From Debaryomyces hansenii CBS767 (taxonomy: Eukaryota; Ascomycota; Pichiomycetes; Serinales; Debaryomycetaceae): 64,000 nt of DNA. The position numbers were made by a program, and so were the translations under genes. Within the stretch, counting starts at the first letter, position 1. Each line of letters starts with the position of its first letter. The stretch covers positions 1,984,001-2,048,000 of the forward strand of contig NC_006048.2 of assembly GCF_000006445.2 (NCBI RefSeq), written 5' to 3'. Below the pieces are notes generated by a model. The model saw nothing but the letters and a program-made list of their open reading frames with translations. It was not told the DNA's origin and made no database searches. Shown one piece after another: positions 50,378-63,473 of this stretch.

Positions 50378-51616
50378 TTATAATGCAGCCATTAACTTGG
50401 AAGGCTGGTTCTCGTCTGATGTTTTAATTGGTTTGCCCAATTTATAGACATTCTTTACAAACCCTTTTTTGTCTAAAACGACCAAATCGGCATCACAGTC
50501 TACATTTAAGAAGCCCTTCCTTTTCTCTACACCGATTGACTTGGCTGGATTATTAGTAACCGTTTTAATTGCTTCTGGAAGCGAAATATTGGCCCAGGCC
50601 ATCAAATTCCGCATGCATTGAGGCAAAGTGGTTGCAGCACCAGCCAAAGTCTTAGTTCCCTTCAAATATAATCTAGGGCCTGTCTTCGTTATGTATTGAT
50701 TATCCCACTTGTAAGTCCCGTCTGGTAGACCTATCAAATGCATTGCATCGGTGACCACTATGCACTTATCTGGCCTCGATCTATATGCTATTGTGGCCAT
50801 GGAAGGGTCAACATGGACTCCATCTGTTATCAAACCGAAATAAGGCGCGTCCTTAGCAATTGGCGATGTTATCAACCCCACAACCCCGACATCCCGGTGA
50901 TGTGGTTGTGGCATGGCATTGTATAAATGAGTGACCATGGTAGCACCATTTTCAATTGCCTGCAACCCCGTCTCGTAGCCTGCAGTGGTATGGCCAATGG
51001 ATACAGTGATATTCTTCTCTTTCAAGACTGCAATCACATCCAAGACTCCTTCGATTTCGGGGGCTGCGGTTACTATGGCCACATACTCGGAAAGGTTGTT
51101 CTCGCCATACACTTTTGTGATATCTCTGTAGCCCCCCTTGGCATCTGTAAATGTCTCAGGAGGATGGCATCCTTTCTTCTGGACATTTATAAATGGTCCC
51201 TCACAGTGTGCTCCAAGAGAGTCTGTTTGCACTTTCGAACGGCTGACCTTATACACCGGCAAGACCTTCTCATACACCTCTGGAAAGTTCGATGTTACCG
51301 TAGGACAAATAGCCGTCACTCCTGTAGCTAAATATTTAGCCATAGCATCACGATAATGATTTCTGAACCCTTCAACATCCTCTTCACTCGAATTTCCATT
51401 CAAAGAAGAGAAATTCAACCCGAATATTCCGTTGTTCTGGATATCAATAAACCCTGGGGCTAGTATATTACCTTCCAAATCAACAACTTCAATTTTTGCA
51501 CCTTTTTCCGGCCTACTAGCAATTCTACCGGTGGAATTATCAACGTATAGCTCTCCATCGTAGTATATAATACCCTGGTCACATAACTGGCAATTGGTAA
51601 ATTTTGTAAACGACAT
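50378..51616 (-). CDS. DAC1: N-acetylglucosamine-6-phosphate deacetylase
   Basis: A 412-residue NagA-type amidohydrolase. Landmarks: LAPGFIDIQNNGIFG (near 56), the metal-binding Glu in HCEGPFIN (near 138), His in SIGHTTAGY, His in VTHLYNAM, and the catalytic Asp in VVTDAMHLIG (near 290). It removes acetate from GlcNAc-6-phosphate, the second step of GlcNAc catabolism. It is divergently transcribed from NAG1 with a 326-bp shared promoter and near the kinase HXK1, forming the NAG cluster of Candida-type yeasts. Confidence 0.95.
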   Translation of the reverse strand: MSFTKFTNCQLCDQGIIYYDGELYVDNSTGRIASRPEKGAKIEVVDLEGNILAPGFIDIQNNGIFGLNFSSLNGNSSEEDVEGFRNHYRDAMAKYLATGVTAICPTVTSNFPEVYEKVLPVYKVSRSKVQTDSLGAHCEGPFINVQKKGCHPPETFTDAKGGYRDITKVYGENNLSEYVAIVTAAPEIEGVLDVIAVLKEKNITVSIGHTTAGYETGLQAIENGATMVTHLYNAMPQPHHRDVGVVGLITSPIAKDAPYFGLITDGVHVDPSMATIAYRSRPDKCIVVTDAMHLIGLPDGTYKWDNQYITKTGPRLYLKGTKTLAGAATTLPQCMRNLMAWANISLPEAIKTVTNNPAKSIGVEKRKGFLNVDCDADLVVLDKKGFVKNVYKLGKPIKTSDENQPSKLMAAL

Positions 51617-51942
51617 ATTGTAGTTAACTCTATCGACAAATACTTCTCATCATATAAACTATATCTTATTATACTTATATATGATTTTATCTCGAATATT
51701 CAAGCCCTTTATACTATGTTGCATTGCAACCTTAGGTATGTTACATTATGTGAGATAAAAAACGTGTAATGCGCAATGATAAGAGATGGAAATTAAATTC
51801 GCAATGTAACGTTACTATGAAAAATGATGTTCGTGAATAAGAACACTACAAATAGCTATATAACTCGATACATACGAATATTAATGGAAAGTACAAACTA
51901 AAGTAATTAATTCATGGAAATTAGAAATTATATAGGTTAATA
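51617..51942. promoter_or_regulatory. DAC1-NAG1 divergent promoter with GTTACAT-type elements
   Basis: Contains the palindrome GTTGCATTGCAAC (51718-51730), GTTACATTATG (51740-51750) and AATGTAACGTTAC (51803-51815, with the palindrome GTAACGTTAC). GTT[AG]CATT is thus present several times in both orientations. The same elements recur upstream of HXK1. Confidence 0.5.
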
Positions 51943-52701
51943 ATGAAGCAAGTTACATTTAGCTCGAAGGAGGACGCATCATCATATTTGGCGAAATACA
52001 TTATTGATAGAATCAACCAATTTGCACCTACACCATCCAAGCCGTTTGTTTTAGGTCTTCCCACCGGTTCATCGCCAGAAGGTGTATATGGCAAGCTAAT
52101 TGAGGCGTATAAAGAGGGGAAAGTATCGTTCAAAAATGTTGTGACATTCAATATGGACGAGTATATCGGATTGAAACCTTCGAACCAACAATCGTACCAC
52201 TATTTCATGTTTAACAAATTTTTCAACCATATCGACATACCCCGCGAGAATATCAATATATTGAATGGTTTGGCAAACAATATTGAAGAAGAATGTCATA
52301 GGTATGAGGCTAAGATCAAAAGTGTGGGGTGCATTCATCTCTTCATGGGAGGATTAGGGGCCGAGGGGCATTTGGCATTCAACGAAGCTGGTTCGGTTAG
52401 AGAATCGATAACTCGGAAGGTGGCTTTGGTCGAATCAACTCTCAAAGCTAATTCCAGGTTTTTCAATAATGACACATCTAAGGTTCCGTCGCATGCATTA
52501 TCTGTGGGGATCTCTACCATTTTGGATAATTCGGATGAAATCGTCATTATTGTATTGGGAAAAAGTAAGACGTTTGCATTGGAAAAGACTCTATATGGTA
52601 CGAAGAACGATGCTAACTACCCATCTTCGTATTTGCAGGATCACCACAACGTGATGGTCGTTTGCGATAACGAAGCTGCTGGCCTTAGAGCCAAGTTGTA
52701 A
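51943..52701 (+). CDS. NAG1: Glucosamine-6-phosphate deaminase
   Basis: A 252-residue NagB-type isomerase/deaminase that converts glucosamine-6-phosphate to fructose-6-phosphate and ammonia, the third step of GlcNAc catabolism. Seen: the sugar-phosphate loop GLPTGSSPEG (near 37), TFNMDEYIGL with the catalytic Asp (near 72), GGLGAEGHLAFNEAGS with His143 and Glu148, and NSRFFNND. In bacterial NagB the residue at 141 is Asp; here it is Glu (codon GAG at 52363). It is convergent with HXK1 and divergent from DAC1. Confidence 0.94.
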   Translation: MKQVTFSSKEDASSYLAKYIIDRINQFAPTPSKPFVLGLPTGSSPEGVYGKLIEAYKEGKVSFKNVVTFNMDEYIGLKPSNQQSYHYFMFNKFFNHIDIPRENINILNGLANNIEEECHRYEAKIKSVGCIHLFMGGLGAEGHLAFNEAGSVRESITRKVALVESTLKANSRFFNNDTSKVPSHALSVGISTILDNSDEIVIIVLGKSKTFALEKTLYGTKNDANYPSSYLQDHHNVMVVCDNEAAGLRAKL

Positions 52702-52976
52702 TTTCAGCATACTCCTGTGTTATTTGGTTTATATTACACTTTTTAATAATATACGTTAGAATGTATTTTGCATCATCGTAGTCTGTGTTTGTTTAATCTA
52801 TAAAATGTAATGAAAATTCCTAGCAAAATTCCTGCCAAGCCAAAGCTCTCATGCTTCTTCACACTAGATCCGTCGATTAAGAGGGAAACCTTCCGATAGT
52901 ATTAGGAGGATCTAATTATGTCTGACAAGGTTTGGCTACATGGTGTAAACTGATATAAATCTATGCATTAATTAAC

Positions 52977-54599
52977 TTATTTATAATATGCTGCGCCAAT
53001 TGCAGCACCAACAATCGAACTGTTGTCGATTGATTTAAAATCTATTTTGATATTCAACCGTTTAATATCCTCATTGTCGTTTACATATTTCAATATTAAC
53101 TTCCGATAATTCTTAAAGTGTAGTAATACCGATCCGACGTATCCTATTGTAAGTAGGTCTTGTCCGTAGCACCCATTATGATGGTCTAATAGTTTTATGA
53201 AACTAACCATCGTGATTGCTACAATAAATGCAGCCCTTTGAATGACACTATTAACAACCACTTTTAACTTACTTATATCAGAAAGTGTAATCAAAGATTT
53301 GTTCCAGCCAAATTCTTCGCATACCTTTTCAGTGATCAATACTTCATCCTCAACTTCTGATATGTAACACATTAATTGACCAGTGATACCCTCATAATTC
53401 TTAAAAATCGGACATAAGTCATTATCATCCAATTCAGCGAAAATTTCCTTTGCTTCAATCAAATCAATTAAAATTAACCTAGTTAATTCAGATAAGTATC
53501 TACCACTAGTCATTAACTCACAAGGTTGAAAAATATCATTTGTTAATGGATCAACCGTCATATGCGGCTTGAAGTTAAGATCGCCACCCTTAAAATCAAA
53601 TCTTTTATCAATTTTACTATCATATTTATTTGCTAAGTCAGAAATCAATGTGTGTCCGAAAAGAGATAACTCTGTATTAAGAAGTATCGCATCCTGATTT
53701 AATTTCTTCTGCTCATGCAAATTACCAGTACGTAAAGAACAACACATGTTGAATCCAGTTCCTAAAACAAGCGCTAATTTCATATGCTTATCCATGAATG
53801 AACCGGCAGAATACACTGCTAACGAATCATTGATGATAGTTTTGATATCGATAGTAATGTTGTAATTGTCCGATAATGATTTCTCTAATATGAATTTTAA
53901 ATCTTGATTGTAAATATCAGATGCAATGGTGTAACCCTTTCCAACGTACACGATTTTCCCAGAATTGTGAGAAACCTGCTCCAAAGGAAACGACCAAGAG
54001 ATACCCGTGTTAATTACCAAATCTTCAGCCCTTATCAAATCTTGCTCTTCTAAAGTTTCATATACTTTTGAACTGACCCATCTAAAAAACTCTGAATCGA
54101 TAGTTTTCGACGAGTCACTAATGTGCCATTTCTTCTCGATGATAATGTGAACCCGTTCAGAACGATCTTCTGATTCATTGACAAATGGATCGATTCGTAT
54201 AACCGCCACACGAAGAGTTGACCCTCCTACATCTATGATTAGGTAGTTTCCCTCTTCGTTGCCTGTTGGACTAATATTGTAGTTCGGCAACATAGTCAAC
54301 TTCGAATTTTCCGATAGCGATTCGTTAAAGTCGTCTAATAAACAGTCTGAGTGATGCTTCAAGCTGCATGGGTCCACATTCTGAGTAAGTCCTTCTACTG
54401 CCTTCTGTAACATTGTCTTTGATGTAACTGGTAAGTCGCTACTAACCGAACTTGGCGAAGTCGATAAATCACCCGTATCTGAGTCTATCGATGCCATTTC
54501 CTCAACGACAGGGTGTAGCAGGTGCTCTTTCAACAGACCAGTCGCTCCCACACCCGATAATGTAGAAGAAAATGCCGGTGTCACAATCGTATGTATCAT
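52977..54599 (-). CDS. HXK1: N-acetylglucosamine kinase (HXK1/NAG5)
   Basis: A 540-residue sugar kinase of the hexokinase/actin fold from the ATG at 54599 (the frame extends 8 codons further only with a GTG). Motifs: phosphate-1 IIDVGGSTLRVAVIR (about 120-134), the sugar-binding INTGISWSFPLEQ, the catalytic-Asp segment INDSLAVYSAGSF, and LGTGFNMC. In Candida this enzyme (Hxk1/Nag5) phosphorylates GlcNAc at C6, the first step of the pathway. It completes the gene trio with NAG1 and DAC1. The N-terminal 100 residues are Ser-rich and poorly conserved. Confidence 0.88.
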   Translation of the reverse strand: MIHTIVTPAFSSTLSGVGATGLLKEHLLHPVVEEMASIDSDTGDLSTSPSSVSSDLPVTSKTMLQKAVEGLTQNVDPCSLKHHSDCLLDDFNESLSENSKLTMLPNYNISPTGNEEGNYLIIDVGGSTLRVAVIRIDPFVNESEDRSERVHIIIEKKWHISDSSKTIDSEFFRWVSSKVYETLEEQDLIRAEDLVINTGISWSFPLEQVSHNSGKIVYVGKGYTIASDIYNQDLKFILEKSLSDNYNITIDIKTIINDSLAVYSAGSFMDKHMKLALVLGTGFNMCCSLRTGNLHEQKKLNQDAILLNTELSLFGHTLISDLANKYDSKIDKRFDFKGGDLNFKPHMTVDPLTNDIFQPCELMTSGRYLSELTRLILIDLIEAKEIFAELDDNDLCPIFKNYEGITGQLMCYISEVEDEVLITEKVCEEFGWNKSLITLSDISKLKVVVNSVIQRAAFIVAITMVSFIKLLDHHNGCYGQDLLTIGYVGSVLLHFKNYRKLILKYVNDNEDIKRLNIKIDFKSIDNSSIVGAAIGAAYYK

Positions 54600-55681
54600 T
54601 TTTGCTATTATAGATATTTTCACGTCTTATTTGTATTGCGAGCAAATTATCACCACATATAGTATATTGAATGATTGAATCTAAAGGTGTAAAATAACCA
54701 CTTGCTTGTGTCTTTTGTTACTATTAAACCGTAGTATTTCCACGCTTTTGGAAATATAAATATATGTCGTTTCCTATAACAATGGCCTATCTTAAGTTAG
54801 ACCAGTAAACACAGTACTTAGATGCAAAAATAAGCTAATAATATCGATGAATTTTACCAACAATTTATTAGAAACGGGTACTTTGTCCAATTTATATTAT
54901 CACCTTGCCCGGGTATATTTATGTTGTTGCAACTACAAAACCGCTAACAATACAAGCCTTGGTTAGTACATTTTCAGGATGTAACATCACTAGTAGTATT
55001 TGTTCGACTGTTACATTGATTCAACCGTTTTTGTGTAATATTTTTTCTGGTTACATTATGTCGTTCAACTTCATTCAATGTCGTTCGAAATATCTCTTGC
55101 TACGTCCCATAGTACATTATCTACGACATGTAGGTTAATGTAACGGGAATACGAAGGTTTTTGAAGGCCTAGAATGTGTCATTACATTCATATTCATGTA
55201 ACTAGATACTATATTTAACGTAACGTTAAACGAGAAAGAATTGGATAAAATTGTGTGGTCGAGTGTGGTGCAACCATTCTGAATGCGGCAATAAAACAAG
55301 CCGAAATGGATTGGATAATTGTAATCGTTGATGAATACGACGTGTAGGTGTTGTAGACTGGATTATACTTCTGGTGACTTTAATGGTGAAACTATGGTGT
55401 AGAAACTGTATTCGGGTACGATGTGATCAGGGAGTGGTATGTGTAGTGTTGTGGCCGTGCCGTTATGTTTTGGTACGATAGGGTTCGGTTGAGAAGCCGG
55501 TTGCAGGGAAATTTTTGGAACAATAGGGGAATTGTGATACTGTAACCCACGGCTACTATTGGGGTGCCATATTCAAGATTTCTGTGCCTGTCTTGCAATG
55601 GGCACTGAATTTGCATCTACCGATCGAGAGTAGAAAGTCTAAAATTAAATAAATGAGTTGGCATTAAATATATAGAGAGAA
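54600..55681. promoter_or_regulatory. Long HXK1 upstream region with clustered GTTACAT elements
   Basis: About 1.1 kb between the HXK1 start and the end of SEY1. GTTACAT-type elements occur at 54979-54985, 55010-55020, 55050-55060, 55137-55144 and 55197-55203, with a near-palindrome AACGTAACGTTAA around 55217-55229. From about 55250 to 55640 the plus strand is unusually G/T-rich with no recognisable gene. Confidence 0.5.
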
Positions 55682-61988: not shown

Positions 61989-63473
61989 ATGAACATGGAA
62001 GAAGGACTGACTGAGTCGTTAAAGAACGACAAAATCAACCAACAACATTCGATGAGTCAAGACGAAAGCGAGCCAAATGTGGAGAGTCTTAGTACAAACT
62101 CGGAAAAAAATATGATACCTTCAGACTTGGAAAAGGATAAACCGTTGACAGATGAGAACGAGTTTCAATATGATGTTGGGTATGCTTGGGTAATAGTGTT
62201 TGGGGTATTTTTGCTTAATTTTTCAACCTGGGGTATGAACTCAGGATTTGCGATTTATTTTTCGTACTATTTGAATAACGATACGTTCGAGGGAGCATCA
62301 AAGTTAGATTATAGTGCTATAGGAGGGATAGCATTTGGAGGGGGGTTGCTATTTTCACCATTTATCAACTATTTACAAGGTCGGATCGGAACCAGACCTC
62401 TAATCATGCTCGGTAATTGCTTGCAGTTTATGGGCCTAATGATGGCGAGTTTTTCAGTAAGCCGCTGGCAATTATACATGACACAAGGGGTCATAAATAG
62501 TTTTGGGTTAGCTTGCATCTCTCTCCCCGGAATAACGTTACTTCCTCAATATTTCAAAAAGAGAAGGACCTTGCTGGGAGGTTTGGCGACAGCAGGATCC
62601 GGGGTTGGTGGTATTGTGTTCAACCTTGGTATGCAAAAGGTCATTCAGACTAGAGATGTTTTCTGGGCCCTCAGATGTCAGAGTATTATAGCATTCGGTT
62701 TGGTATGGATTGCCGTAGCAATTCTTAGATCTCGTTCCAAAAATGCTAAGATTGAGTTCACCATCATCGACATGCAATGTTTGAGGTGTACGGGGTTCTG
62801 GTTTTTCGTCTTATATGTGATAACATGTATGTTTGCATATGTGGTCGTATTGTATACTTTGGTTAACTTTACTACATCATTAGGCTACAGCGAATATGAA
62901 GGGTCTATTGTGTCTGCAATGGTTCAATTGGGTTCTTGTATAGGAAGACCCTTAGTTGGTCTCACTGCTGACAAAATTGGTTCCATCACTATGGCACTTA
63001 TCGCATATACCTTATGCGCAATATTTGCTTTGGCAATGTGGATTCCTGCCAGGAACTACGCAACCATTATCGTATTTGCCTTAATCATGGGTTCTTTAAT
63101 GGGTTCTATATACGGTACCGTCGCACCTTCTATTGCAAGGCTTGTTGGCATGAATAAGCTAAATGTCACTTTCTGCATGTTGTGGATGTTCTTAGGCGGT
63201 GCCGGGATTGCATCTCCTGTTATAGGAGTGTCGTTGAAAACCGGAGGTGGGGGTTTTGTCGATGCTACACAATATGTCTACTGTTCTGTGTTTGCTGGTG
63301 TATCGTTTGCGGTATGTGCCTTATCATTATTATTATTAAGAGGTTACGTTTTGGGCCGTGATACTTTGGTTGACGCTGAATCTGATTCGGATTACGGTGG
63401 ACATTTATCAGTAAGAGTTCCTTTAGGTCTTGCTTTAAGAAGTTGTTTCAAATGGACCCCTAGAAGGGCTTGA
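61989..63473 (+). CDS. Monocarboxylate-transporter-like protein (MCH family)
   Basis: A 494-residue major-facilitator protein with about 12 membrane segments. After a polar N-terminus (1-65) comes the signature DVGYAWVIVFGVFLLNFSTWGMNSGFAIYF (66-95), the typical start of MCT/MCH transporters, and RRTLLGGLATAGSGVGG between segments 4 and 5. The Mch1-5/Esb6 family in yeast does not all carry monocarboxylates: Mch5 takes up riboflavin. The substrate here is unknown. The family is clear; the exact orthologue (Mch2, Mch4 or Esbp6) is not. Confidence 0.82.
   Translation: MNMEEGLTESLKNDKINQQHSMSQDESEPNVESLSTNSEKNMIPSDLEKDKPLTDENEFQYDVGYAWVIVFGVFLLNFSTWGMNSGFAIYFSYYLNNDTFEGASKLDYSAIGGIAFGGGLLFSPFINYLQGRIGTRPLIMLGNCLQFMGLMMASFSVSRWQLYMTQGVINSFGLACISLPGITLLPQYFKKRRTLLGGLATAGSGVGGIVFNLGMQKVIQTRDVFWALRCQSIIAFGLVWIAVAILRSRSKNAKIEFTIIDMQCLRCTGFWFFVLYVITCMFAYVVVLYTLVNFTTSLGYSEYEGSIVSAMVQLGSCIGRPLVGLTADKIGSITMALIAYTLCAIFALAMWIPARNYATIIVFALIMGSLMGSIYGTVAPSIARLVGMNKLNVTFCMLWMFLGGAGIASPVIGVSLKTGGGGFVDATQYVYCSVFAGVSFAVCALSLLLLRGYVLGRDTLVDAESDSDYGGHLSVRVPLGLALRSCFKWTPRRA

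Follow-up and report, generated by a model that had tools for sequence, protein, structure and literature searches.

Galactose genes in yeasts of the CTG clade are known to share a regulatory element: a palindrome resembling the Rtg1-Rtg3 motif ranks first among the motifs of GAL promoters in six species (Candida albicans, C. dubliniensis, C. tropicalis, C. parapsilosis, C. lusitaniae and C. guilliermondii), and two copies of this palindrome, TGTAACGTTACA, placed in a test promoter in C. albicans give induction by galactose and by N-acetylglucosamine (GlcNAc) that is lost without RTG1/RTG3 (Dalal et al. 2016, PMC5067116). The genes of GlcNAc catabolism in C. albicans belong to a circuit described separately, in which Ngs1 is recruited to NAG1/DAC1 by Rep1 (Su et al. 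2016, PMC5063960). Here we analyse a window of 64 kb from Debaryomyces hansenii (bases 1,984,001-2,048,000 of contig C6, in a genome of 12.18 Mb in 8 contigs), in which three GlcNAc catabolic genes, DAC1, NAG1 and HXK1, are clustered, as they also are in C. albicans, and carry repeated GTTACAT or GTTGCAT (GTTRCAT) half-sites upstream. These half-sites look like pieces of the palindrome ATGYAACGTTRCAT, that is, of the CTG-clade GAL element TGTAACGTTACA; that GAL and GlcNAc genes have this element in common is very probable, and the GlcNAc genes most likely carry the known, GlcNAc-responsive GAL element. To the account as a whole, including the regulator proposed below, we assign a probability of about 0.6.

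The three gene calls, made originally from the letters alone, are upheld by Pfam, which places the products in the amidohydrolase, glucosamine-6-phosphate isomerase and two-domain hexokinase families. NAG1 is 51-55% identical to bacterial relatives (among the at least 80 matches listed); several named relatives of HXK1 are called 'N-acetylglucosamine kinase 1', 'NAG5' or 'HXK1' and others 'hexokinase I' or 'phosphotransferase', the closest named one, from Debaryomyces fabryi, being 85% identical. Relatives sought in prokaryote genomes and plasmids were all bacterial, and viral contigs yielded none. DAC1 and NAG1 are divergent, with a promoter of 326 bp between them; since SEY1, like HXK1, is encoded on the minus strand, the 1082 bp from 54600 to 55681, bounded by the SEY1 stop, comprise the HXK1 upstream region and the 3' side of SEY1. 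The genes and their elements, in window coordinates, are as follows.

50378-51616, minus strand: DAC1, GlcNAc-6-phosphate deacetylase (Pfam Amidohydro_1, 1.6e-16), adjoining NAG1 and HXK1
51718-51730, no strand: GTTGCATTGCAAC, a perfect 13-bp odd-centred palindrome with the GTTGCAT half-site (51718), 102 bp from the DAC1 ATG
51740-51750, plus strand: GTTACATTATG, with the GTTACAT half-site (51740), 203 bp 5' of the NAG1 ATG
51803: AATGTAACGTTAC, in the DAC1/NAG1 promoter, where ATGTAAC lies at 51804
51805-51816, no strand: TGTAACGTTACT, the main dyad, with a single mismatch to TGTAACGTTACA, some 139 bp 5' of NAG1 and 188 bp 5' of DAC1
51943-52701, plus strand: NAG1, glucosamine-6-phosphate deaminase (Pfam Glucosamine_iso, 1.4e-16)
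52977-54599, minus strand: HXK1, GlcNAc kinase (Pfam Hexokinase_1/2, two-domain hexokinase)
54979-54985, minus strand: ATGTAAC half-site, HXK1 promoter
55010-55016, plus strand: GTTACAT half-site, HXK1 promoter
55050-55060, plus strand: second copy of GTTACATTATG, HXK1 promoter
55138-55144, minus strand: ATGTAAC half-site, HXK1 promoter
55196-55202, minus strand: ATGTAAC half-site, HXK1 promoter
55214-55230, no strand: TTTAACGTAACGTTAAA, a perfect 17-bp palindrome that holds the degenerate dyad
55219-55230: CGTAACGTTAAA, the degenerate dyad, two mismatches from TGTAACGTTACA
55220: GTAACGTTA, upstream of HXK1 and within the 17-bp palindrome

All strings listed in the preliminary description of this DNA are present where it placed them upstream of DAC1/NAG1 and of HXK1, including the exact second copy of GTTACATTATG at 55050. 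The DAC1/NAG1 promoter contains GTTACAT twice and GTTGCAT once, along with the near-perfect palindrome TGTAACGTTACt; upstream of HXK1, for which at least five GTTACAT cores in about 225 bp had been claimed, exactly five (on either strand) fall within 224 bp, at 54979, 55010, 55050, 55138 and 55196, together with the 17-bp palindrome. The HXK1 half-sites are isolated, occur in both orientations and stand 31-88 bp apart, start to start. Palindromes as long as those of 13 and 17 bp are also found elsewhere in the window.

The background for these counts consisted of 94 intergenic regions (48,797 bp), namely gaps of at least 100 bp between ATG-to-stop open reading frames of at least 100 amino acids called mechanically; they were drawn from the window and from 13 stretches chosen by gene family or adjacency, excluding the two test promoters and seven motif-picked stretches (L028-L034). 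GTTACAT occurs there 11 times (0.225/kb), so that about 0.05 copies are expected per 225 bp, a little lower than the chance rate of 0.1 per stretch given earlier. No background region has more than one GTTACAT inside 225 bp, and an equal frequency in unrelated promoters, the outcome that the preliminary description had set against its own proposal, is not seen in the 94 regions. For the 1082 bp upstream of HXK1 the expected number is 0.24 and the Poisson probability of five or more copies 5.9e-6; for the 326 bp between DAC1 and NAG1 it is 0.07, with a probability of 2.6e-3 for at least two GTTACAT and of 2.6e-4 for at least three GTTRCAT. Post-hoc choice of the word was allowed for by counting the copies per 225 bp of each 7-mer that has two or more G/C: three copies of some such 7-mer occur in 12 of the 94 background regions and four in none, against five upstream of HXK1. 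The top 7-mer of the DAC1/NAG1 promoter is another word, with three copies, and this promoter would not stand out by that test alone. Genome-wide, GTTACATT is not enriched (593 against 636 for its reversed control); the signal is local clustering and palindromic arrangement, not the word alone.

The palindromic arrangement leads to the GAL genes. Genome-wide counts were compared with those of reversed-pattern controls; converging half-sites (ATGYAAC, a gap of 0-30, GTTRCAT) are found in 20 places and their control in 8. Same-strand half-site pairs number 32 against 29 and diverging pairs 12 against 7. In 8 of the 20 converging places the half-sites abut (gap 0) and form the palindrome ATGYAACGTTRCAT, with a binomial probability of 1e-7 under equal likelihood of the 31 gaps; leaving out the three GAL places gives 5 of 17 (1.6e-4). 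Those three dyads fall in 5.1 kb of contig C3, in a stretch (L039) that carries GAL7 (galactose-1-phosphate uridylyltransferase), an epimerase-like gene, GAL10 (fused epimerase-mutarotase) and GAL1 (galactokinase). The two divergent promoters there, of GAL7 and of GAL10/GAL1, hold five dyads, of which three match ATGYAACGTTRCAT exactly and two deviate from it once. When these five dyads are turned into a matrix and the 64-kb window is scanned with it, the DAC1/NAG1 site comes second, at 13.9, and that of HXK1 fourth, at 11.1; over 194 kb, 3 positions score at least 13.9 and 7 at least 11.1, the two GlcNAc sites counted in. With at most one mismatch to TGTAACGTTACA, the DAC1/NAG1 palindrome is one of 37 such places in the 12.18 Mb, four others being in GAL promoters; upstream of HXK1 the best match has two mismatches (55219), and there are 10 such or better in the 194 kb. 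What this genome itself shows is the element, an excess of it locally and its occurrence on both sets of promoters.

GAL7 and GAL10/GAL1 here carry the same 12-bp palindrome as the CTG-clade element named the 'Rtg1-Rtg3 motif' (PMC5067116). The D. hansenii case differs from that published one in that the element is also on GlcNAc catabolic genes, with one mismatch at DAC1/NAG1 or two at HXK1, and in that HXK1 adds half-sites; the six species of that study exclude Debaryomyces, and NAG1, DAC1 and HXK1 were not found in its main text (PMC5067116). The preliminary description had proposed a regulator that binds a dyad GTTACAT site and coordinates the pathway; the shared dyad element is supported, and what that proposal missed is that the element had already been described for GAL genes. 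A full-text search returned no report of the element in GlcNAc-gene promoters; outside its scope, and with a possible bearing on the point, are Perez et al. 2013, said to contain chromatin immunoprecipitation (ChIP) data for Rtg1/3, and Kumar et al. 2000, which reportedly deals with factors of the NAG1 promoter.

We propose that the GTTACAT elements represent complete copies and halves of TGTAACGTTACA: the DAC1/NAG1 promoter would have one nearly complete dyad with half-sites at its flanks, and the HXK1 promoter a degenerate dyad and an array of five half-sites. The regulator that reads the element on GAL7, GAL10 and GAL1 would then also read the three GlcNAc genes, which would make one sugar-response circuit for both. 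It may be a dimer bound to the palindrome, most likely the basic helix-loop-helix (bHLH) heterodimer Rtg1-Rtg3, with Rep1, and via Rep1 Ngs1, acting at the same promoters; the same factor might also read the half-site array of HXK1, binding each site less tightly. As direct binder we give Rtg1-Rtg3 an even chance. The GlcNAc response, the RTG1/RTG3 dependence of the reporter and the occupancy of GAL and DAC1/NAG1 by Rep1 were shown by others in C. albicans; that the Rtg1-Rtg3 of D. hansenii binds here, and that the half-site arrays function, we infer.

This genome has candidate genes for these regulators. There are three NDT80-family genes, an Ngs1-like GH3 gene of 1044 amino acids in which Pfam shows no acetyltransferase domain, and eight HLH loci, of which five were read in part. 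By their signature residues rather than by a tree, we take the bHLH segment at C7:1232853 to be Rtg3-like and that at C5:1081785 to be Rtg1-like; two other HLH loci look, on the same basis, like Cbf1 and Pho4.

Several observations weigh against the proposal that the GlcNAc genes carry the GAL element and that Rtg1-Rtg3 reads it. Genome-wide, neither the palindrome TGTAACGTTACA at up to one mismatch (37 against 47 for its reversed control) nor same-strand GTTACAT pairs with 30-60 bases between them (6 against 8) are enriched. The matrix test is partly circular, the GAL locus having been found via the half-site pattern from the GlcNAc promoters, so that the GAL search adds new information in two respects only, namely that the half-sites abut and that the place richest in them is the GAL cluster; the top match of the GAL matrix in the window (position 436, score 18.0) falls within a reading frame. 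HXK1 has half-sites and a two-mismatch dyad, not dyads of GAL quality. No GTTRCAT half-site is found in the promoters of HEX1, NGS1 and the three NDT80-family genes, HEX1 being GlcNAc-induced in C. albicans, and GlcNAc-regulated genes are therefore not marked by the element in general; the HEX1 promoter has one AACGTT core and one GTTGCA. As for the regulator, the intact GAL1 promoter of C. albicans keeps some galactose induction in an rtg1 rtg3 double mutant (PMC5067116), GAL1/GAL10 induction is reported as normal in rtg1 and rtg3 mutants and ChIP-seq puts Rep1 on GAL1/7/10 and DAC1/NAG1 (Sun et al. 2023, PMC9925049), and the fragments bound by CaRtg1/CaRtg3 contain GTCA, GTGAC or CATGTG, words that TGTAACGTTACA lacks (2026, PMC12862490).

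The binder is thus contested between Rtg1-Rtg3, by reporter genetics, and Rep1, by ChIP at both gene sets. A direct reading of the palindrome by Rep1, a protein of the Ndt80 family, alone or in a complex, with the GAL and GlcNAc genes as the Rep1-activated sets, is in our judgement rather unlikely as the alternative to Rtg1-Rtg3. It accords with the Rep1 ChIP-seq peaks just cited, with the rise of the other tested Rep1 targets upon REP1 deletion, unlike the GlcNAc and galactose genes (PMC9925049), and with the bringing of Ngs1 to NAG1/DAC1 by Rep1 (PMC5063960). The circuit known from C. albicans has the same target genes, and Rep1 is also on GAL promoters; its published ChIP motif, however, is adenine-rich and is not said to be this palindrome (PMC9925049), and the reporter bearing the palindrome lost its induction without RTG1/RTG3 (PMC5067116). 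The genome does contain the three NDT80-family genes and the Ngs1-like gene that such a circuit would use. Ndt80 binds DNA as a monomer, and abutting half-sites fit a dimer such as a bHLH protein better. The Rtg1-Rtg3 site of Saccharomyces cerevisiae, the R-box GTCAC, is one base from GTTAC (PMC12862490, PMC12781876), and the DAC1/NAG1 promoter has no GTCA on either strand, no CANNTG and no Ndt80 core CACAAA, whereas the 1082 bp upstream of HXK1 have one GTGAC and one CACAAA. The palindrome is therefore left as the obvious candidate site at DAC1/NAG1. The evidence for Rtg1-Rtg3 on this sequence is more direct than that for Rep1, which is still a live candidate; the preliminary description had named Ngs1 and Rep1 as regulators and omitted Rtg1-Rtg3.

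That two elements are present, a GAL-type dyad at DAC1/NAG1 and a GTTACAT array at HXK1 for another factor that shares the half-site by chance, seems improbable to us. The isolated half-sites of mixed orientation at HXK1 are unlike the abutting GAL dyads, and three half-sites within 37 bp are found also 5' of a phosphoglycerate mutase-like gene (L045); yet HXK1 has GTAACGTTA within its 17-bp palindrome as well, and of the six same-strand spaced pairs in the genome two are in the HXK1 promoter and one of the other four is in that of GAL7, the remaining three places being unread. Most improbable of all is chance, a word picked post hoc in AT-rich DNA, which would suit the genome-wide counts without enrichment listed above and the modest count at DAC1/NAG1 by itself; a 7-mer cluster as dense as that of HXK1 is absent from all 94 background regions, abutting converging half-sites are far above other gaps genome-wide, and half of the spaced pairs belong to HXK1 and GAL7. 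Rtg1-Rtg3 acting through the GAL palindrome remains our preferred reading.

Further places in the genome carry the element or parts of it. At L045:509-545 (C4:1076208-1076244) the three half-sites in 37 bp lie 132-168 bp 5' of the 253-amino-acid phosphoglycerate mutase-like gene (identified by eye), which may belong to this circuit as well. At L046:701-736 (C4:1548700-1548735) three half-sites in 36 bp lie between the genes of a divergent pair that by eye encodes a phytanoyl-CoA dioxygenase-like protein and a Gfo/Idh/MocA-like dehydrogenase. A perfect ATGTAACGTTACAT is found at the end of an FGGY sugar kinase gene, about 305 bp 5' of a Zn-cluster regulator gene (L042:1554-1567, C4:1269853); about 117 bp 5' of a nucleoside hydrolase gene (L041:1504-1517, C3:880003); and about 434 bp 5' of a reading frame without Pfam match that is partial at the end of its stretch (L040:1537-1550, C2:888736). 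Eight GTTRCAT spaced 99-141 bp apart in a single reading frame of 634 amino acids (L034:4139-6043, C1:118 kb) are probably an internal coding repeat and not regulatory sites.

Other candidates were set aside. The longer word GTTACATTATG is unremarkable as the element, with 7 copies in the genome against 8 for its control; for three of the five other copies (L028-L032) the adjacent or overlapping gene was scanned, giving a GTPase, a tRNA synthetase and a glycosyltransferase-like gene. At C2:323.9 kb, a near-dyad lies upstream of a weakly PEX11-like gene with no evident link. Within the window, two ATGTAAC (61393 and 61749, 356 bp apart) lie 5' of an MCH2-like transporter gene (61989), the sole two-copy region of the 94. 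This major facilitator superfamily gene (61989-63473) was considered as the GlcNAc transporter NGT1 or as NAG3/4; most of the relatives that have names are monocarboxylate transporters of the MCH2 type, and its two upstream half-sites are therefore not counted as support. Protein P0166, a yeast-like monocarboxylate transporter (MCT) filed under Acetobacter pasteurianus, scores equally with a Lodderomyces elongisporus protein and is probably yeast contamination.

Together, these results connect GlcNAc and GAL genes through a common DNA element that has already been tested in C. albicans. Published studies of Rtg1-Rtg3 and Rep1 are in open conflict, and the DAC1/NAG1 promoter, with one dyad in 326 bp and no R-box, E-box or Ndt80 core, provides a clean test between them. 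A more speculative possibility, which we hold only tentatively, is that CTG-clade yeasts respond to galactose and GlcNAc alike through TGTAACGTTACA, in full dyads and in arrays of half-sites, and that a Rep1 scaffold, perhaps together with Rtg1-Rtg3, truly lands on this element, where Rep1 swaps partners (Ngs1 for GlcNAc, Cga1 for galactose); if true, this would reconcile the Rtg1-Rtg3 and Rep1 reports. The sharing of the element suggests that one regulator serves both sugars, galactose and GlcNAc.

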